This document shows, one piece after another, positions 11,028 to 62,391 of a stretch of 64,000 bases of DNA. The translations under genes were made by a program, and so were the position numbers. This DNA comes from Candidatus Limnocylindrales bacterium (GTDB lineage Bacteria; Desulfobacterota; Binatia; UBA1149; CAITLU01). Position 1 is the stretch's first letter; every line of letters begins with the position of its first letter. Under the pieces are notes generated by a model. It was not told where the DNA came from. It ran no database searches and saw only the letters and a list, made by a program, of their open reading frames with translations. Location: the NCBI GenBank assembly GCA_035571835.1, contig DATNBU010000013.1, forward strand, positions 112,001 to 176,000, read 5' to 3'.

Positions 11028-11155
11028 GCTCACGCAACGCCGCACCGCAGCGACGATGTTGGCTTGACTCAACCTTGTGCCGACGATTACCTTCTCCGCG
11101 GTTTCGGCCGTTCGGCTGACATATTTTACCGCTCGTTCTGCCTTTGGGAGGGCTC

Positions 11156-14100
11156 ATGAAAAGTTGGAGAAAGCTCGGCATCGCCGGGCTCGCAGCAGTC
11201 GCTTTGGCTTTTGGCGTTCAGCGGGCGGATGCGCGGTGCATCGACCCCAACACGAATACGGTCGAAACCGCGGCCGATTGCCGCTTTGCCACCGGTGGTA
11301 CGGGCGATGTCTGCCGCGTTGCAGTCGGCCTCCCGCAGGACTCTTCTGGAACGCCGTTCGTCGATCCCAAGAAGATCGTCTGCATTGACGGCGAGGCTTG
11401 CGACGCCGACGGCACCGCCGACGGCACGTGCACGTTCCGCGTCGGCATCTGTGTGAACGTACCGAACGGCGGCTGTGACACCGCTCCCATTACGGCGTCC
11501 CTGCTCAGCAAGCCGGGCGTCAAGGAAGCCACCAACGCGTTCAAAACGCCTCTGGCCGTCTATAACCAGATCACGCTGGAGAACGGACTGGCCAGTCTCG
11601 AAGGCTCGGCGGTCAACGCATGCACCGACGCCGACCTGCCGGTCAAGGTGAATCTCAAGCTCAAAGGCGCGTGCGCGAGCGGCGGCGGCTGTACGAGCGA
11701 CCTCGAATGTACCGCCGACGAGACCGACTCGTGCATTTTCTCGGCGAAGAAGAACAAGGCGAACGTCTCGTTCAGCGTAAGCGACGCCGCGGATGACTAC
11801 GGCGTCAAGTTCAAGCTGACCTGCGCGCCGTCGGCGACCAATCCGGCGCATGCCTTCGTGATCGCGGACTCCAACGACCTGATCGGCGGCCCGCTCGCGA
11901 TGGGCAGGGTCGGCGACTTCATGATCCGCAATGGCAACGTGCGCGCCGTCGTACGCGCGCCGGGCCGCCAGCACTCGTTCATGCTGCTCAACGGCGGCGA
12001 GATCATGGACGCGGATCTCGTGCGCAGTGACCCCTCCGAGGATCGCGACAGCTTCAAGGGCATCCAGCCGGAGATCAACATCTGCTCGTCACAGGCGACG
12101 ACCAACGTCGACGTGCTCAACGCCGGAACGGATCCGGAGCTCTCGCCGGCCGCGATCATCGAGTCGAGCGGCGACGACGATCTGTTCGACCCGATCAAGC
12201 CCGACGTCCTCGTGACCGCGGCCAACAGCGCGCTGACCGTGCCCGCCGAAGCCAACGACGTCGACATCCCGATCTCCGTGAAAACGCACCTGATCCTGAG
12301 CCCGTACTCGAACGTCATCGAGATGGCGACGACGATCACGAACAACGGGGGCAGCGGCACCGCCCACTACTTCATGGGCGACTTCATCAATCCCGGTGGT
12401 CAGCTCGAGCCGTTCGGGCCCGGGCAGGGCTACGGCGAAACGCAGATTCGAAACGGCAGCAACACGGCATCGCCCGGGCAGACGCTCGACTTCCTTGCGT
12501 TCCAGGGACGCATGGACGCCGCCGGCCTGACGTACGGTGTCGTCTTCCCGCAGGCTGGCGCATCGCCGCAGGTGGGCGCGACCAAGACCGGGACTTTCGC
12601 ATCCTCGGGCGTGTACGCCTACGTGAGCAACAACAACCTGTTCGACACGCTGTTCGGGAACATGAACGCCAAGGACCAGGGTGGCTTTGCCGTCACCGGC
12701 AATGGAGGTGAGAAAACCTTCCGCCGCTGGTTCGTGATCGGGAAGACGATCTCCGACGTGACGAAGGCTCATACCGAGATTTTCCTGCGGCCGAAGTCCG
12801 CTCTTCAGGGATTCGTGAAAGACACCGACGGCAATCCGGTCGCCGATGCGCACGTGACCCTGGTCAAGAACGGCAACACCATCAACGGCTCCTGCAGTCC
12901 CAACACGGACTGTCACGACATCTTCACGTCCACGCTGACCGATGAAAACGGGTTCTACCGCTTCATCATTCCGGCGGGCGATTACGACATCTACTACCGC
13001 AAGGGCGGGACGCCGTATCCGGGTCACGACGACGTTCCGACGCTGCTGGCGGGAGTCATCACGGAAGAGAAGAAGACCACGGTTGCGGCGGATCTCGTGC
13101 TGCCAAAGACCGGTACGGTAACCGTCAACGTCGTGGACGAGCTCGGGAACCCGATCGCAGCGAAAGTTTCGATCGTCGGACCGCAGGCAAGTCCTGACCC
13201 GCTCAACAGAGAGCCGTTCGTCATTCCCCAGTTCGGCCGCTTCTTCGGTTATGATTTCGAGGAGAAGGGCGACGTATTCGGCCTTGCGGAAGCGAAGTTC
13301 GCCGATGCAAGTGGCACGACCGGCACGTTCGACCTCGAGCCGGGCACGTACCGCGTGGTCGTCTCGCACGGTTACGAATACGACGCCGACAATCAGGCAC
13401 TGGTGGTGACCGAAGGCGCCAATACGACGATCAATGCGGTGGTGCGCCACGTGGTCGATACGACCGGCTTCGTGTCGATCGATACCCACGTTCACATGAT
13501 CAACAGCCCGGACAGCACGATCACCCGCGAGCGCCGCATCACGTCGATGATCGCCGAAGGCGTGGATTTCTTCGTGAACACCGATCACGATTTCATCCAT
13601 TCGCTGGCGGACGAGATCTCGAGCATGGGCGTCGGCTCGCTGATCGCGAACTCTCCGTCGGACGAAGTCACGACCAGCCACTACGGTCATTTCAACGTCT
13701 GGCCGCTGACGGTCGATAGCGCCCAGCTTGCCGGCGGTGCGATCGACTGGAGTGCCCATCTCGGGATCGGAACCGGCTACCCGTCCGGTGGGTTCTATGA
13801 TTCGCTGCCGAGCGAGATCTTCACCGTCGGTGCTGCGTATCCGGGCACGCAGGTTGTCCAGGTCAACCACTTCAACAGCGGGACGCTCGGCCACTTCAAT
13901 GCGCTCGGCATCGATACCGCGCAGAACCCGCCGATCAGCAGCAATGACGTGTATCGTTGCGTTGGCGGACCCGACGCGCCGACGAGCGGTTTTGGCAAGC
14001 CTTGCCAGATCCGGATCTGCCTTGGTGGCGTCAACGACGGCAACACCTGCACCGGTGCCGGCGACTGTACCGGTGGAACGTGCGGGGCCGGTAGCGCCTG

Positions 14101-15058
14101 TCAGGCGCCCGGAGTCTGCACGGCGGCCGGTAACCTCAGCAGTTACCTCCGCTTGCCGCCGAGCTCGACCAACCTGTACGGTGACAACTTCACGGCCCTC
14201 GAGGTCTGGATCGAAGCCAGCCGCGGGCAGACTGCGCTGCTGCGCGGTGACAACATGGCCGACTGGTTCAACCTGCTGAGCCAGGGCCGTTTCCGCGCCG
14301 GCACGGCGGACTCGGACACGCACAGCTCGATCTCGGTCCAGGCAGGCGGTCCGCGTACGTTCGTCGCATCGTCGACGGATGCGCCGGGGTCCATCAGCGC
14401 GGAAGAGCTCGCGCAGAACGTCAACGGGATGCGTGCCATCGGATCGAACGGCCCGTTCATGCGAGTCTCGCTCAACGGAACGGCGTCCCAGGCGCTGGGC
14501 AGCCCGCGGACGACCACGTACCTGCCGGGCGTAGACGCGAACACGATCTCGGTTCATGTCGAGGCTCCGACGTGGGCCGAATACGATACGATCGACGTGT
14601 ACATCAACTCGCCCACGAGCTGTCAGTCGGAGTGGACGTTCTTCGGATCCGTCAATCCGTCGAAGTGCTCGACGGTGGTTCCGCAGAAGACGCTGACGAA
14701 GGCGCTGGTTGCGGACGCGACGCACTTCACCGTCGGGACATCGACAGGCGTTTCGGGCTTCGGCACGCGCCTGGTCTCCGACGTTTCCATTCCGGTGACG
14801 GTCGCGGCCGACTCGTGGGTCGTCGTGGTCGTGCGCGGCACCGATGGCGTGTCGCATCCGCTGTTCCCGATCGAGCCGCAGGACATCAGCGAGACCGGCA
14901 ACGACACGCTGTCGCAGCTCACCGATGGCGGCGCGGCGCTGCCGTGGAACCTGAACGAGAGCGGCCAGCTTGCGCTCGCGTACTCGAACCCGCTGTTCTT
15001 CGACGACGGCGACAACACGTGCACTTTCAGCAATGGAAGTGCAGCCTGTCCGCTCTGA
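11156..15058 (+). CDS. Large secreted CehA/McbA-type (PHP-like) metallohydrolase
   Basis: A 1300-residue exported protein with signal peptide LGIAGLAAVALAFGV...ADA. An N-terminal Cys-containing region (about 25-210) is followed by a beta-rich domain. Two carboxypeptidase-regulatory-like folds come next (LQGFVKDTDGNPVADAHVTL and VTVNVVDELGNPIAAKVSI). The CehA/McbA domain starts at about residue 770: FVSIDTHVHMINSPDSTI, VDFFVNTDHDF, and later GTADSDTHSS, where the His/Asp residues should bind metals. A Cys-rich insert of about 40 residues (CLGGVNDGNTCTGAGDC...) interrupts this domain. CehA and McbA hydrolyse carbaryl, but this substrate is unknown. ATG 11156 has GGGAGGG behind it. A strong terminator follows. 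Confidence 0.85.
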   Translation: MKSWRKLGIAGLAAVALAFGVQRADARCIDPNTNTVETAADCRFATGGTGDVCRVAVGLPQDSSGTPFVDPKKIVCIDGEACDADGTADGTCTFRVGICVNVPNGGCDTAPITASLLSKPGVKEATNAFKTPLAVYNQITLENGLASLEGSAVNACTDADLPVKVNLKLKGACASGGGCTSDLECTADETDSCIFSAKKNKANVSFSVSDAADDYGVKFKLTCAPSATNPAHAFVIADSNDLIGGPLAMGRVGDFMIRNGNVRAVVRAPGRQHSFMLLNGGEIMDADLVRSDPSEDRDSFKGIQPEINICSSQATTNVDVLNAGTDPELSPAAIIESSGDDDLFDPIKPDVLVTAANSALTVPAEANDVDIPISVKTHLILSPYSNVIEMATTITNNGGSGTAHYFMGDFINPGGQLEPFGPGQGYGETQIRNGSNTASPGQTLDFLAFQGRMDAAGLTYGVVFPQAGASPQVGATKTGTFASSGVYAYVSNNNLFDTLFGNMNAKDQGGFAVTGNGGEKTFRRWFVIGKTISDVTKAHTEIFLRPKSALQGFVKDTDGNPVADAHVTLVKNGNTINGSCSPNTDCHDIFTSTLTDENGFYRFIIPAGDYDIYYRKGGTPYPGHDDVPTLLAGVITEEKKTTVAADLVLPKTGTVTVNVVDELGNPIAAKVSIVGPQASPDPLNREPFVIPQFGRFFGYDFEEKGDVFGLAEAKFADASGTTGTFDLEPGTYRVVVSHGYEYDADNQALVVTEGANTTINAVVRHVVDTTGFVSIDTHVHMINSPDSTITRERRITSMIAEGVDFFVNTDHDFIHSLADEISSMGVGSLIANSPSDEVTTSHYGHFNVWPLTVDSAQLAGGAIDWSAHLGIGTGYPSGGFYDSLPSEIFTVGAAYPGTQVVQVNHFNSGTLGHFNALGIDTAQNPPISSNDVYRCVGGPDAPTSGFGKPCQIRICLGGVNDGNTCTGAGDCTGGTCGAGSACQAPGVCTAAGNLSSYLRLPPSSTNLYGDNFTALEVWIEASRGQTALLRGDNMADWFNLLSQGRFRAGTADSDTHSSISVQAGGPRTFVASSTDAPGSISAEELAQNVNGMRAIGSNGPFMRVSLNGTASQALGSPRTTTYLPGVDANTISVHVEAPTWAEYDTIDVYINSPTSCQSEWTFFGSVNPSKCSTVVPQKTLTKALVADATHFTVGTSTGVSGFGTRLVSDVSIPVTVAADSWVVVVVRGTDGVSHPLFPIEPQDISETGNDTLSQLTDGGAALPWNLNESGQLALAYSNPLFFDDGDNTCTFSNGSAACPL

Positions 15059-57648: not shown

Positions 57649-59715
57649 CTAGTCGCTCGATAGCCGAACGCTCGTGTCCGTATTGTCGATCGGCTCCGCG
57701 TACGTCGCTTCCCAGCACGCACCGAGATCGTTGACGAGTTGCGCGCGAACCGGAAAAGCCAGGAGCGGCAGCGACGGCAGCTCCAGGTTTTCGCCGGCGG
57801 CCGAAAGGCCGATGGAGGTTTTCGTTGCAGTTCCTTTGACCGTGAGCTTGGTCATCCCATTCGGCATGCCATCTCTGCTCCGGTACTGCGTCGCAGCGGA
57901 TCTCTTCCAGCAGCCGCCCGTAACGCCATTGCCGCAGATCGGCCCCGCGGGTGCATCGACGCGTGCCAGAAGCCCGCTCGGATCGAACACGCACAACCCA
58001 TAATTCGTCCCGCCAAGACCGGCGGCGATCTCATCCGGTGCCGACGCTTCTCCCTTCGGCCACTTCCAGCGCAGCGATCGCGCGGCCGGATCGGTACTGT
58101 CTTCCATCTGCAATCGCGTAGCTGCCAGGGGCTGCTTGCAGCCGGTATGCGCCTCGAGGACGTGCTCGCAGGTCGCTGCGCCGTCGCAGCGATCGAACGT
58201 GCAGAGGTCGTCGTCCGCCGTGCAGGCAGTTCCTGCCGGTGCAGTCTGATGCAGGCAAGTCCCGCTGCCGTCGCAGCGCTCGAGCGTGCAAAGGTCGTCG
58301 TCGGGCGCGCAGGCCGTATCAGCCGCGACGAGCGTGCAGGCTCGAGTACAGCAGTCGATGTTGCCGCGATTCCCGTCATCGCATTCTTCGCCGGGATCGC
58401 TCAGCCCGTTGCCGCATGGGTGACCGGCCAGTGCGTACACCATGTCGAGACCGGGACCCTTGGTGCCGCTGGCGAGCCGCCTGTCCTTCGACGACCACAA
58501 TGCCAGCCAGTGACCCGAAGGATCGTACGCGACGAACGGATGGATCTCGTCATCGCCCGAGGGGTCCGTCTGGGCGTCGTTCAGCGGAAACCATGGGGAC
58601 CAGGTCGCGCCATCATCGTCAGTGCTCGCCATGAAGACGTCCGCGTCCAGGCCGTAGGCGTCAGGGGTCCCGTGAGCACCCCGCTGCCAGACCACGACGA
58701 ACTCGCCGTCCGGTCCGGCGGCGACGCTGACAGGCCCATCATTGCCGTTAAAATCCGAAGCGACCGCGATCGGTGCGCTCCACGTCGTGGCGCCGTCCGA
58801 CGAGCGTGCGGCGTAAATGAAAGAGGCATCTGTCCCGTACGAGGGCCAGGTCGCGATCCAGTTGCCGGCGCCGTCGCTTGCAAGCCGCGCGGAGTCGTCG
58901 TCGGTCTGATCGTCGGCGTGAAGCGCCGAAGGCGCAGCCCACGTAAGTCCGCCATCGGTCGAATGCGATGCGAACAAATCGCGATCGACCTGCTGGTCGG
59001 TAGATATATCGTAGCCACCGGTCACCCACGTGACTACCCAGGCCCCGCCGGACCAGAACACCTGCGTGCCGATCACGCCTGGTGCATCGCCGGCGGCATC
59101 TGCGACGAGCGTCGCCGGAGGGCTCCAGGTATTTCCGCCGTCGGTTGAACGCGTAGCGTAGATGTCCGTGTAGATCGCTCCGCCGATGTTATGCCCGGGC
59201 CACACGATGATCCACGTCCCCTCTCCGTCCGTCGCAATTCCCGGAGACCGTGCACCCTCCGCCAGTGTTCCCGGAGGACTCCACGACGTTCCCAGATCGT
59301 CGGAATGCGCGACGAGGATCTGTTCGCCCTGTTCGCTCGTCCTCGACCATACCGCGATGAACCGGCCGTTCGTATCGGCAGCCAGCGATGGCGCAAAATC
59401 ATTATCCTCAACGACGTTGTCGAAAAAAACGTAATCGTCCGTTGCGAAATCCGTATTGAGAATGGCGGCCGGGCCGAACGTGAGGCCATTGTCGGTCGAT
59501 CGCGAAAACGCGATCTCGCGTATCGTGCTCCATGCGACGACCCATGTACCCGCACCGTTCGTTGCAGCGACTGGCGAAACGGCGTTGGTCCCGGCGTCGT
59601 TCAACTGAGGGTCCAGCACAACGGGCGGCTCAAAGACGGGCGACGCCGCCTGCACCGGCAGATTCGGAAGAAGGCAGAGGGCCAGAAGTATCGGTAGTTG
59701 CTTGTGGAAGATCAT
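57649..59715 (-). CDS. Secreted sialidase-like (BNR) protein with myxobacterial Cys repeats
   Basis: 688 residues. A signal peptide (LPILLALCLLPNLPVQAA) is followed by about 400 residues with Asp-box motifs (STDNGLTFGP, STDGGNTWSP, SSDGATTWSA), a sialidase-like propeller. From about 440, NGLSDPGEECDDGNRGNIDC is the myxobacterial-type disulfide repeat. Two near-duplicate Cys units follow (ACAPDDDLCTLERCDG, ACTADDDLCTFDRCDG). The last ~155 residues form the WKW/CW domain shared with the gene at 60289. Catalytic Arg triad not identified. ATG 59715 is preferred over 59760. Confidence 0.8.
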   Translation of the reverse strand: MIFHKQLPILLALCLLPNLPVQAASPVFEPPVVLDPQLNDAGTNAVSPVAATNGAGTWVVAWSTIREIAFSRSTDNGLTFGPAAILNTDFATDDYVFFDNVVEDNDFAPSLAADTNGRFIAVWSRTSEQGEQILVAHSDDLGTSWSPPGTLAEGARSPGIATDGEGTWIIVWPGHNIGGAIYTDIYATRSTDGGNTWSPPATLVADAAGDAPGVIGTQVFWSGGAWVVTWVTGGYDISTDQQVDRDLFASHSTDGGLTWAAPSALHADDQTDDDSARLASDGAGNWIATWPSYGTDASFIYAARSSDGATTWSAPIAVASDFNGNDGPVSVAAGPDGEFVVVWQRGAHGTPDAYGLDADVFMASTDDDGATWSPWFPLNDAQTDPSGDDEIHPFVAYDPSGHWLALWSSKDRRLASGTKGPGLDMVYALAGHPCGNGLSDPGEECDDGNRGNIDCCTRACTLVAADTACAPDDDLCTLERCDGSGTCLHQTAPAGTACTADDDLCTFDRCDGAATCEHVLEAHTGCKQPLAATRLQMEDSTDPAARSLRWKWPKGEASAPDEIAAGLGGTNYGLCVFDPSGLLARVDAPAGPICGNGVTGGCWKRSAATQYRSRDGMPNGMTKLTVKGTATKTSIGLSAAGENLELPSLPLLAFPVRAQLVNDLGACWEATYAEPIDNTDTSVRLSSD

Positions 59716-59767
59716 GTTTTCGCACCTGGAGGCAATACAGTTGTCAGTCAGACCGACCATCGAGGAG

Positions 59768-60285
59768 TCAGGGCACCCGCTGCCGCGCGACGCGATCGCT
59801 TATGTCGGCGAGCAGCTCGTCAAGATCGATCCCGGAACGATCCGCGCCTCGGCCGGCAATGCGTCGGCCGTGTTCGGTCCGAACGTGATAGATACCGGTT
59901 TCGAGACCTACCGGGCTCGTGAAGCCGCGAGCGCTTTCGCGGCGCAAAAATACGACGACCTCTTCGCCGACCGAATACATCGGCAGATCCGGGATGCGAC
60001 CGATCGGGGTCGTGCTCGAAGCATCCGAATTTCCGAACTGCTTGATCGTGAGCCGCCGGCCGCTCTCGCCCTTCACCGCTTTGTCGACGTCGAATGTAAC
60101 CCAAGTCGCCGCCAGTCCCGACGCATCCCTGCCGGTACGAACGTTCGTCACCGTGGCATGAACGATCCGGTCCGCGCCGCGGACCGTTTCATCGAGCGTC
60201 AACTCCCGCGCCACCGTCATCGCGCCGGCGGATGTGGCGGCGAGAACGGCGGCGAGCGAAGCGATCCGAATGAACTTTCGTCTCA
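59768..60285 (-). CDS. Exported protein of unknown function
   Basis: 172 residues from ATG 60285. Signal peptide: IRIASLAAVLAATSAGAMTV. The mature part (ELTLDETVRGADRIVHATV, AATWVTFDVDKAVKGE, MYSVGEEVVVFLRRES) is beta-rich, like small domains annotated only as hypothetical exported proteins. It starts three bases after the upstream matrixin-like gene, so the two are an operon. Confidence 0.72.
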
Positions 60286-60288
60286 TCC

Positions 60289-62391
60289 CTAACCTCTTGC
60301 GCGAAGCTCGTCGGTGTCGTTCCGGAGCATGCCATTCGACGGAAAAGCGCTCGACCAGCAGTGTCCGTCGCTGTTCATCCATTGCACCGACAGCGGGAAT
60401 ACGAGCGGCAGTACCGGCATACCGAGCGCGTCGCCGGCTCCTTTGAGCTTGAACTTCGCACGCCCGGCATCATCGGCTTTGAGCTTGGCCGATCCGAGAC
60501 CGTCCGGAAGCAGCCCGGCATCTTTGTAGCTCAGGCCCGAGCTCTTCACGCTCCAGCAGCCCTCGAGCCCCGAGCCGCAGCGAGTGCCCGCCGGCGCCCT
60601 CGCCATCAGACGGAGCGAATTCGCGGCGTCGTAGACGCACAGCGCGTAGCTGGTTCCAGCGTCTGTCGAGGGATCGCCGAGCTCCGCGGCCGACGCGTCG
60701 CCGGGTCCCCATTTCCATTGCAGCGCGAAGTTCGATGGATCCCCGCGACGAAGACGAAGCGACGAGTGTCCGACCGAGGACGGCGCGGAGCAGTCGTTGC
60801 GCGGCGCCGGCGGACACGCGGCGGCCGGTGCAAAGTCGAATGCAATCTCCATCAGTCCCCCGCCCTGCACACGCGCGGCGACATCGAACAGATAGGGAAC
60901 TCCCGCATCGGCCGCGACGACCAGATCCGATGTGACATTCGGTCCGCTGTCGTTGTCGCAGGCCTCCTGCGTCAATATGCCGCATTGTCCACTCAGTGCG
61001 CTGACGATCGTATCATAGTTGCTGCCGGACGTGGCTGCGTGGATCACCCCGTCGACAGAGGGCGTGAACTGATACCAGACGCTGTTGTAGTTCTGCGAAA
61101 AAAACTCCGTGCATGTCTGGATAGGGTCGAATGCACCGAGCGTTGCGCCGGTGACGTCGATCGCATCGGCAAATGGCATCTCATCGATGTCGATCGCACC
61201 GCTGCATTCGTCATTGACCGGGATCGGGCCCTGGTTCGCGATGAAGTCGATGTCGTCGATTACGCTGCCGGCCGTGACGACGATTGCCTGTGCGACCGCC
61301 GGATCGTCCGGCGGATTGCTGGCCGCCTCGTCACTGCCATTCCAGAACTCCGGAGCGCCCGGCAGCCCTGTCGGAGTTTCGGACGGTCCGACGCTCGAGC
61401 CGCCGATAAAAGCGGCATAGACCGGCTCGATCTCCACCGTGTAAGACCCCGGCGGCAGTCCCTTCAATTCATACCGCCCTCTCAATGCGGCGTCCGCCGG
61501 TCCACCCGGATTGGACGGAAAGTAGTAGGCCCCGGAAACCTGCGACACGGCCGTCACAAGCGAATCGCCAACGGCGCGCGCCACGACGTTCGCACCCTGA
61601 AACAGCGTAACGCCGTCGGCGAAAAGCACGGATCCCGCTATCGTCCCGTTCTCGGTGTCGAACGACGCGGCCGGATACAGCGAAGAGACCGAGGCCATGT
61701 CGTCGAGGTGAAGCGATGTCATCGCCGTTCCGTTGACCAGAATCGGGAACATCGTCGCGACCGCTGCATCGTTCAAAGGGTCTCCATCGAACGCGACGGA
61801 CAGGCCCACCTGCGAATGGTCAAGGTTGAGATAGTGTCCGAGTTCGTGGATCAGGACGGCATCGAACTGTTCCGGGGTCAGCTCGGGATTGGAATCGGAA
61901 TCGACGCCGTCGAGGAATACCCCGTTCATCACCGAATAACCTTCGGTAAGTTCGGGAGGGACATACGTCCCGCAGGCCGGTGCCGCGAATCCGATGATGT
62001 GCTCACTGGCGCCGTCACCGAAGAGGTCATCGGTGATCTTTCCATCCGTATCGAAAACAATCGGGCTCAATCCATCATCGCATGACGACAGGATGCCCGT
62101 GTAGTTGGCCGACGTCACGTCCATCGAAAGTTGAGATCCCGCGCTCAGCGAGACATCTGCCGTCGCCACGTCGTTCCAGGCGTCGGCGGCAGCCGCCAGG
62201 CGCGCTGTCGCGGATGCATTCGACAGTGCGCCGAGCGAGCCGCGATCCGGATTGTACGACGCCGTGCCGCCCGGCCAGGTCAGTGGCTGCCCCCCACCGT
62301 TCACGATCAGTGGGCCGGCCGCATCTGACGACCGGGCAGCTACCGCGATGCACAGCGCTGCGGCGAACAGGCAATGAAGAAGCCGCGTCAC
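60289..62391 (-). CDS. Secreted matrixin-like zinc metalloprotease with shared WKW/CW C-terminal domain
   Basis: 700 residues from GTG 62391 (GAGGG upstream). Signal peptide: LHCLFAAALCIAVAARSSDA. The zinc site HELGHYLNLDHS (about 190) is HExxHxxxxxH, with a Met-turn candidate (MASVSSLYP) downstream, as in metzincins. Then a carboxypeptidase-regulatory-like domain (IAGSVLFADGVTLFQGAN) and a PPC-like domain. The final ~155 residues carry FALQWKWGPGDASAAELGD, CVYD, GCWSVKSSGLSYKDAG and HCWSS, matching the C-terminus of the gene at 57649. Peptidase activity is inferred. Confidence 0.85.
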   Translation of the reverse strand: MTRLLHCLFAAALCIAVAARSSDAAGPLIVNGGGQPLTWPGGTASYNPDRGSLGALSNASATARLAAAADAWNDVATADVSLSAGSQLSMDVTSANYTGILSSCDDGLSPIVFDTDGKITDDLFGDGASEHIIGFAAPACGTYVPPELTEGYSVMNGVFLDGVDSDSNPELTPEQFDAVLIHELGHYLNLDHSQVGLSVAFDGDPLNDAAVATMFPILVNGTAMTSLHLDDMASVSSLYPAASFDTENGTIAGSVLFADGVTLFQGANVVARAVGDSLVTAVSQVSGAYYFPSNPGGPADAALRGRYELKGLPPGSYTVEIEPVYAAFIGGSSVGPSETPTGLPGAPEFWNGSDEAASNPPDDPAVAQAIVVTAGSVIDDIDFIANQGPIPVNDECSGAIDIDEMPFADAIDVTGATLGAFDPIQTCTEFFSQNYNSVWYQFTPSVDGVIHAATSGSNYDTIVSALSGQCGILTQEACDNDSGPNVTSDLVVAADAGVPYLFDVAARVQGGGLMEIAFDFAPAAACPPAPRNDCSAPSSVGHSSLRLRRGDPSNFALQWKWGPGDASAAELGDPSTDAGTSYALCVYDAANSLRLMARAPAGTRCGSGLEGCWSVKSSGLSYKDAGLLPDGLGSAKLKADDAGRAKFKLKGAGDALGMPVLPLVFPLSVQWMNSDGHCWSSAFPSNGMLRNDTDELRARG

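Follow-up and report, generated by a model that had tools for sequence, protein, structure and literature searches.

Two exported proteins with a shared C-terminal domain

We analyzed a stretch of 64,000 nucleotides (the window) of contig DATNBU010000013.1 from the genome of a Candidatus Limnocylindrales bacterium, in which two proteins, P0001 and P0002, end in related copies of a domain that we designate type 1. An earlier note on this DNA had placed both proteins and their tails here, and both were found. The features of the locus are as follows:

57649..59760, minus strand: P0001, exported BNR/sialidase-like protein (translation, BNR_2 match, signal peptide by heuristic and by eye; MIFHKQLPILLALCLLPNLPVQAA)
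58171..58419, minus strand: cysteine-rich acidic repeats preceding the P0001 tail (TIGR02232 myxo_disulf_rpt above cut-off at residues 448-477; remainder by eye)
57652..58170, minus strand: type 1 tail domain of P0001, residues 531-703 (own-genome profile match, E 6.9e-41)
60289..62391, minus strand: P0002, exported matrixin-like metalloprotease (Peptidase_M10 below cut-off; signal peptide by heuristic)
60292..60816, minus strand: type 1 tail domain of P0002, residues 595-769 (own-genome profile match, E 4e-45; structure model)

An alternative start of P0001 is possible at 59715, and the likely start of P0002 is a GTG at 62391 in a frame that is open to 62598. The description of P0001 as sialidase-like was borne out, its core passing the curated cut-off of BNR_2 (PF13088, BNR repeat-like) with 55.6 bits against 31.4; any sialidase activity is putative. 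P0002 had been called matrixin-like and does contain HExxHxxNxxH, but its match to Peptidase_M10 (Matrixin, PF00413) scored 18.4 bits and did not reach the curated cut-off of 24. The similarity of the two end regions seen earlier reflects homology, with 38% identity over 142 residues (77.4 bits, E 4e-23), although the length of the shared tail is nearer 170 residues than the approximately 155 first estimated. In the full-length comparison no stretch outside the tails scored more than 19 bits, and the cores can therefore be regarded as unrelated, as had been proposed.

A 204-residue open reading frame (ORF) without Pfam match lies between the two genes at 59768-60382 on the minus strand, its start overlapping the end of P0002. 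Elsewhere in the same genome (G000), C11:9246-11871 (L057) holds a paralogous BNR-like and matrixin-like gene pair, both with type 1 tails, which represents a duplication of the gene pair. The tails of the C11 paralogues are 52% and 50% identical to their window counterparts and 32-37% identical across. Local gene conversion between the P0001 and P0002 genes was considered and rejected, each tail being nearer to its C11 paralogue than to its neighbor (32%).

Sequence and predicted structure of the type 1 domain

Conserved positions were derived from an alignment of 49 of 54 tails of this genome (A2), from which five long or divergent ones (d42, d43, d50, d51 and d52) were excluded. The copies diverge widely, with a mean identity of 28%, and four cysteines (C1, C9, C60 and C153) as well as W88 are present in all 49. 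Further tryptophans are found at W34 (43/49), W36 (42/49) and in the final CW (38/49). An additional cysteine pair, C80 and C87, was complete in 20 tails, entirely missing in 29 and reduced to a single cysteine in none, a pattern as expected of a disulfide. The cysteines of 'PAGxxCG...GCW' listed in the earlier note mark this sub-type of 20 tails.

AlphaFold2 predicted an all-beta structure for the 175 residues of the P0002 tail (pLDDT 96.3, pTM 0.91), and type 1 is probably a disulfide-stabilized beta-sandwich module. The LxWKW tryptophans alternate on a predicted strand and would probably belong to the core rather than to a binding patch. A Foldseek search of the model against PDB returned no match at E <= 0.001. 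A second structural comparison gave weak matches, the best with a Z of 6.6 to a viral glycoprotein followed by archaellum proteins, where values below 8 may reflect merely a common arrangement.

The domain had been claimed to be undescribed, and this held for the libraries searched: the P0001 and P0002 tails had no match in Pfam or NCBIfam at E <= 1, the 49 tails scanned singly gave no consistent match in either library, only single stray ones to other families, and their profile matched no chain among the PDB sequences at E <= 1. Among the literature matches listed, no title or abstract start indicated a paper on this domain, and a word search of the Binatota paper PMC8262859 returned none of 'secretion', 'secreted', 'extracellular' and 'outer membrane'.

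Copies and carriers in the genome

A search of the genome with a single tail resulted in 56 matches at E <= 10, two of which were set aside from the alignment, one with a long extension past the domain and one apparently in the wrong frame that the later profile did not recover. With the profile of 49 tails, 56 matches were strong (E <= 6e-15), a recurrence well beyond what chance would give. Twelve others were weak, consisting of eight tails of a second type described below, one N-terminal domain (L120), one chance-looking match (L124) and two short frames. One copy, C27:50652, is interrupted by a stop within the domain. A search of plasmids with one tail gave no match.

The 56 carrier proteins span 42 Pfam families at E <= 0.001, with overlapping families and the cysteine-rich repeats included in this count. 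Their cores comprise penicillin amidase, esterase-like, beta-helix, lysyl oxidase with P-domain, trypsin with PPC, lactonase, phosphodiesterase, PKD, DUF5122 propeller and hydrazine-synthase-alpha-like domains, among others. Signal-peptide-like starts were detected with a simple heuristic in 48 of the 52 carriers with a complete 5' end; three of the four misses appeared signal-peptide-like by eye and the fourth is a short odd ORF. Since this first count had allowed the carriers more alternative starts than the control ORFs, it was repeated over even ranges, and such starts were found in 45/52 carriers versus 9/32 other window ORFs over 150 codons and in 48/52 versus 10/32 over 300 codons (three 5'-truncated carriers were excluded from both counts). 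A loose lipobox pattern occurred in six of the 52 and was mostly unconvincing. Cytosolic carriers, which the earlier note had named as evidence against its proposal, were not convincingly seen among these 52 proteins.

Position within the proteins

The distance from the domain to the stop was at most five residues in 50 of the 56 copies of this genome, at most ten in 52 and at most 28 in 55. For other genomes of the class, 41 full copies at 40 loci from 34 genomes, hand-chosen from the best matches listed, were examined, and 36 of them were located within ten residues of the protein end while five were not. Among the 39 of these proteins with a stop in the fetched stretch, which leaves out the two internal copies L148 and L149, the protein end coincided exactly with that of the model in 29 and lay no more than three residues away from it in 34. 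Exact coincidence was also observed for 35 of the 55 copies recovered as ORFs in the genome under study (one of 56 was unrecovered), a count that is partly circular because the model was built from those ends, as is the case for the type 2 ends below; the counts from other genomes are not subject to this circularity. None of 94 proteins carried two type 1 copies. The expectation that the module is always C-terminal thus has to be relaxed, with internal copies, which the earlier note had also named as evidence against its proposal, at 1/56 and 5/41, even though its presence on exported proteins with unrelated cores and its nearly constant place at their end stood. Type 1 is a module that strongly prefers the protein end, and it is no obligatory terminal signal.

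Exchange of tails on related enzymes

Three further tail families were compared with type 1. Type 2 is homologous to it (profile comparison probability 98.4, E 8.8e-15), and its model has a similar strand order (pLDDT 89.9) and no Foldseek match at E <= 0.001. It is found on eight further proteins of the genome, all of which end at most three residues from it. Types 3 and 4 exhibited no detectable relation to type 1 in profile comparisons; type 3 has no Pfam match, and type 4 corresponds to the DUF7450 (PF24247) repeat, for which one of two scanned sequences was above the cut-off and the other below.

The main new result of this analysis is that both penicillin amidases and metalloproteases with related cores differ between genomes in what follows the core, which may be type 1, an unrelated tail or no tail at all. 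The metalloprotease core has a type 1 tail in the genome under study (two paralogues) and a type 3 tail in G334, G337 and G338, whose cores are 44-50% identical to it, while that of G253 (48% identical) has yet another end. A short protein of G335 that has only the post-protease region in common carries a type 2 tail. The core was matched in 20 of 148 class genomes, 18 of which have type 1, the other two being G268 and G269 of family f83 with only the post-protease region in common; it was not found in the tail-negative families among these 148 genomes. The different end of the metalloprotease relative in G253 (L166, C176:60500-65000) is an apparently helical, cysteine-bearing tail and perhaps represents a fifth tail type.

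For the amidase, 20 loci chosen by frame length were inspected. Type 1 was present at one of them (G334), for a total of three type 1 amidases when those of our genome (C18) and of G333 are counted. Type 3 was present at two (G336 and G279, a more distant core) and type 4 at five (G000 C8, G274, G018, G275 and G257). The remaining 12 loci have none of the four tails, and three of these proteins, from G256, G257 and G258, end right after an amidase core that is 38-39% identical to our own. A maximum-likelihood tree built from the amidase cores placed the G257 protein, which has a type 4 tail, together with the type 1 amidases of G333 and G334 (99/97) and apart from the type 4 amidases of family f1. 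On this tree, at least two changes each are required for types 1 and 4. Our own type 1 amidase core forms a long branch of unsure placement; the exchange between G257 and G333/G334 is independent of it. As unrelated tails are swapped on related enzymes, they would serve a task that is independent of the core, for example sorting or retention.

Within the window, an ORF at 11144-15058 on the plus strand encodes 1304 residues with a signal-peptide-like start, a type-3-like N-terminal domain (E 1.8e-6) and a CarboxypepD_reg domain mid-protein.

Distribution of the tail types

In a sample of 198 genomes of the phylum, type 1 was detected in five, all from the same class as the genome under study (two of the seven class members sampled were without it), and in none of the other 191. 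Across the class it was present in 54 of 148 genomes, including all or most members of families f1, f78, f79, f80, f2, f3, f82, f83, f84, f86 and f90 as well as one genome of f81, and in none of the remaining families. Copy numbers in these genomes are lower bounds, because at most 18-25 candidates per genome were scored in the class and phylum searches.

Type 3 was found in 55 of the class genomes, type 4 in 50 and type 2 in 54, the last count not being independent because the type 2 model weakly hits some type 1 tails. Types 1 and 3 occurred together in 53 genomes, only one of them in three and neither in 92; the corresponding numbers for types 1 and 4 were 47, 10 and 91, and the Fisher values for these co-distributions ignore phylogeny. 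Within families, breaks in the distribution of the types coincided in two places. Genus g182 of f83 lacks types 1, 2 and 4, and each of its two genomes has just one, rather weak, match to type 3. In genus g157 of f81, types 2 and 4 are present, accompanied by type 1 in one genome, and type 3 is missing; in the rest of f81 only type 4 was seen, in G209. The shared distribution of the tail types hints at a shared function.

Possible function of the tails

We see about an even chance that type 1 belongs to a set of interchangeable tails for sorting or retention, read by a specific partner in the envelope or matrix. In favor of this are the 56 strong copies in a single genome, the diversity of the cores, the frequent signal-peptide-like starts, the cysteine pair that is never single, the coincidence with the protein end, the single copy per protein, the tail exchange and the nearly identical genome sets of types 1, 3 and 4. 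The protein would first be exported by Sec and its core would fold in the periplasm; it would then pass through the outer membrane, with type II secretion as a possible route. A component of the envelope or extracellular matrix would recognize the tail and sort or retain the protein at the surface, and the other tail types would play an equivalent part for different partners or locations. Of the 54 genomes with type 1, 50 have a GspD match far above the cut-off (best E <= 6e-128), and those of the other four are weaker or partial. The best new support for the idea that the module may serve secretion, anchoring or attachment comes from the unrelated tails found in its place on related enzymes. 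The wider proposal that part of the class uses an undescribed sorting or anchoring system, with at least four interchangeable tail sequence families (two of them homologous) that are gained and lost together, is put forward only tentatively.

Several observations weigh against such a sorting role. One copy of the genome (C28) is internal, being followed by 501 more residues, and precedes a Gly-rich region that appeared beta-helix-like by eye. In L136, L148 and L149 the domain lies between Pro/Thr-rich linkers, in L162 it directly follows the signal peptide and precedes a linker and a CxxCH region, and in L163 it is followed by 34 residues. A weak type 1 relative (L120, G000 C42:58947-59354, E 0.0039) is N-terminal in a protein of 804 residues, right behind the signal peptide. 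A true C-terminal signal would not be expected at these internal and N-terminal positions, and the internal copies fit a module for binding or retention better than an export signal that is read only at the C-terminus. That the tail families are not confined to C-termini follows as well from the type-3-like domain at the N-terminus of the window ORF 11144-15058. Furthermore, 12 of the 20 amidase loci carry none of the four tails, some of them in tail-rich genomes, and the co-distribution of the tails, being uncorrected for phylogeny, may largely reflect clade membership.

The GspD and exosortase searches over the 148 genomes also revealed no machinery that follows the tails. GspD-family matches (E <= 0.001) were obtained in 146 genomes with or without tails, 109 of them above the cut-off and the weaker ones possibly representing other secretins, and the type II secretin was therefore rejected as a tail-specific machine. 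A second GspD copy seemed to track the tails in some families, not in f82 as judged by eye, and was dropped. Exosortase (PF09721) was matched in 42 of the 148 class genomes, 28 of the 54 type 1 genomes and one of 14 controls; as it was not found in our own genome and does not follow the tails, it was likewise discarded.

The copies amid Pro/Thr-rich linkers are also compatible with a ligand-binding module that recognizes a cell-surface or environmental polysaccharide or the matrix, requires no dedicated partner or sorting machine and is usually placed last. Carbohydrate-binding modules are similarly flanked by such linkers, sandwich folds are common among binding modules, and the type 2 model gave an insignificant CBM9 row (E 0.1). 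Considering that the domain is not repeated within any of the 94 proteins, that the cores are not mainly carbohydrate-active, that the coincidence with the protein end is exact in 29/39 and that the LxWKW tryptophans would probably offer no binding patch, we regard this explanation as doubtful.

Alternatively, the domain might help its protein to fold or stabilize it without influencing location, perhaps as a C-terminal pro-domain that is cleaved off once the protein is exported; the high predicted order, the cysteine pattern and the existence of tail-less amidase relatives would agree with this. A folding aid is expected to be core-specific, whereas one domain serves cores of quite different folds here and on one core its place is taken by unrelated tails, which makes this possibility unlikely. 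Even less probable, and very unlikely in our view, is a domain family of little selective value spread by recombination: the tails do differ between related enzymes and the copies are widely divergent, but four cysteines and one tryptophan are invariant over the 49 copies despite this divergence, and the tails follow their cores through duplication, as in the window and C11 pairs (52% and 50% within paralogous pairs versus 32-37% across).

Comparison with known systems

Proteins with the C-terminal domains (CTDs) of the type IX secretion system (T9SS) share the layout of a signal peptide, a diverse exported core and a usually terminal domain, in type 1 a probable beta-sandwich, with dozens of copies per genome and several sequence-unrelated tail types (PMC10202324, PMC4804311). 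Type A (PF18962/TIGR04183) and type B (PF13585/TIGR04131) CTDs are distinguished, and the CTDs are described as restricted to Bacteroidota. In spite of this resemblance, identity with these CTDs was rejected and even a remote relationship appears extremely improbable, as neither the type A nor the type B models in Pfam and NCBIfam matched any of the 49 tails at E <= 0.5. Type 1 further differs in its approximately 170 residues, its four or six cysteines and the occurrence of internal copies. A T9SS CTD measures roughly 80-100 residues. SprA_N was matched in none of the 148 class genomes, which is a weak argument since none of the 14 control genomes matched either. The PDB fold searches with the type 1 and type 2 models gave no significant relative, and T9SS CTDs were not among the matches listed, which is uninformative.

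A general beta-sandwich arrangement like that of types 1 and 2 is found in FlaF/FlaG and archaellin sandwich domains. FlaG/FlaF aligned with type 1 over 96 residues (VIA Z 4.8, rmsd 3.4) and with type 2 over 94 (VIA Z 6.5, rmsd 3.2), but neither model had a Foldseek match at E <= 0.001. DUF7450 (PF24247), the repeat of type 4 on related penicillin-amidase cores, has no detectable relation to type 1.

PEP-CTERM/exosortase, MYXO-CTERM/myxosortase and GlyGly-CTERM/rhombosortase are comparable in that each involves a C-terminal tag, limited to certain lineages, on a large variety of exported proteins (for PEP-CTERM and MYXO-CTERM see PMC1569441 and PMC11980579). In PMC1569441 the case for PEP-CTERM as a sorting signal was built on features that type 1 shares, namely a high copy number, signal peptides, diverse cores, a C-terminal place and a limited range. 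PEP-CTERM and MYXO-CTERM consist of a short motif, a transmembrane helix and a basic end, whereas type 1 is a folded domain without such an end. Over the last 60 residues of the 49 tails, mean hydropathy in stretches of 19 residues did not exceed 1.45, which indicates no transmembrane-like stretch (1.6 was reached in two tails, further upstream within the domain), and 41 of the 49 have at most two K/R in their last eight residues; a C-terminal helix followed by basic residues is thus not a feature of type 1.

Entire sorting systems have been discovered by starting from C-terminal domains, as with PEP-CTERM, through phylogenetic profiling, and with MYXO-CTERM (PMC1569441, PMC11980579). Type 1 offers such a starting point, as a folded tail on 56 proteins of one genome that has no model in the libraries searched, gives way to unrelated tails on related enzymes and was restricted to certain lineages of a single class in the sample searched. 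With a model of type 1, many hypothetical exported proteins could be annotated, and its occurrence across the 148 genomes can be used to seek the partner machinery.

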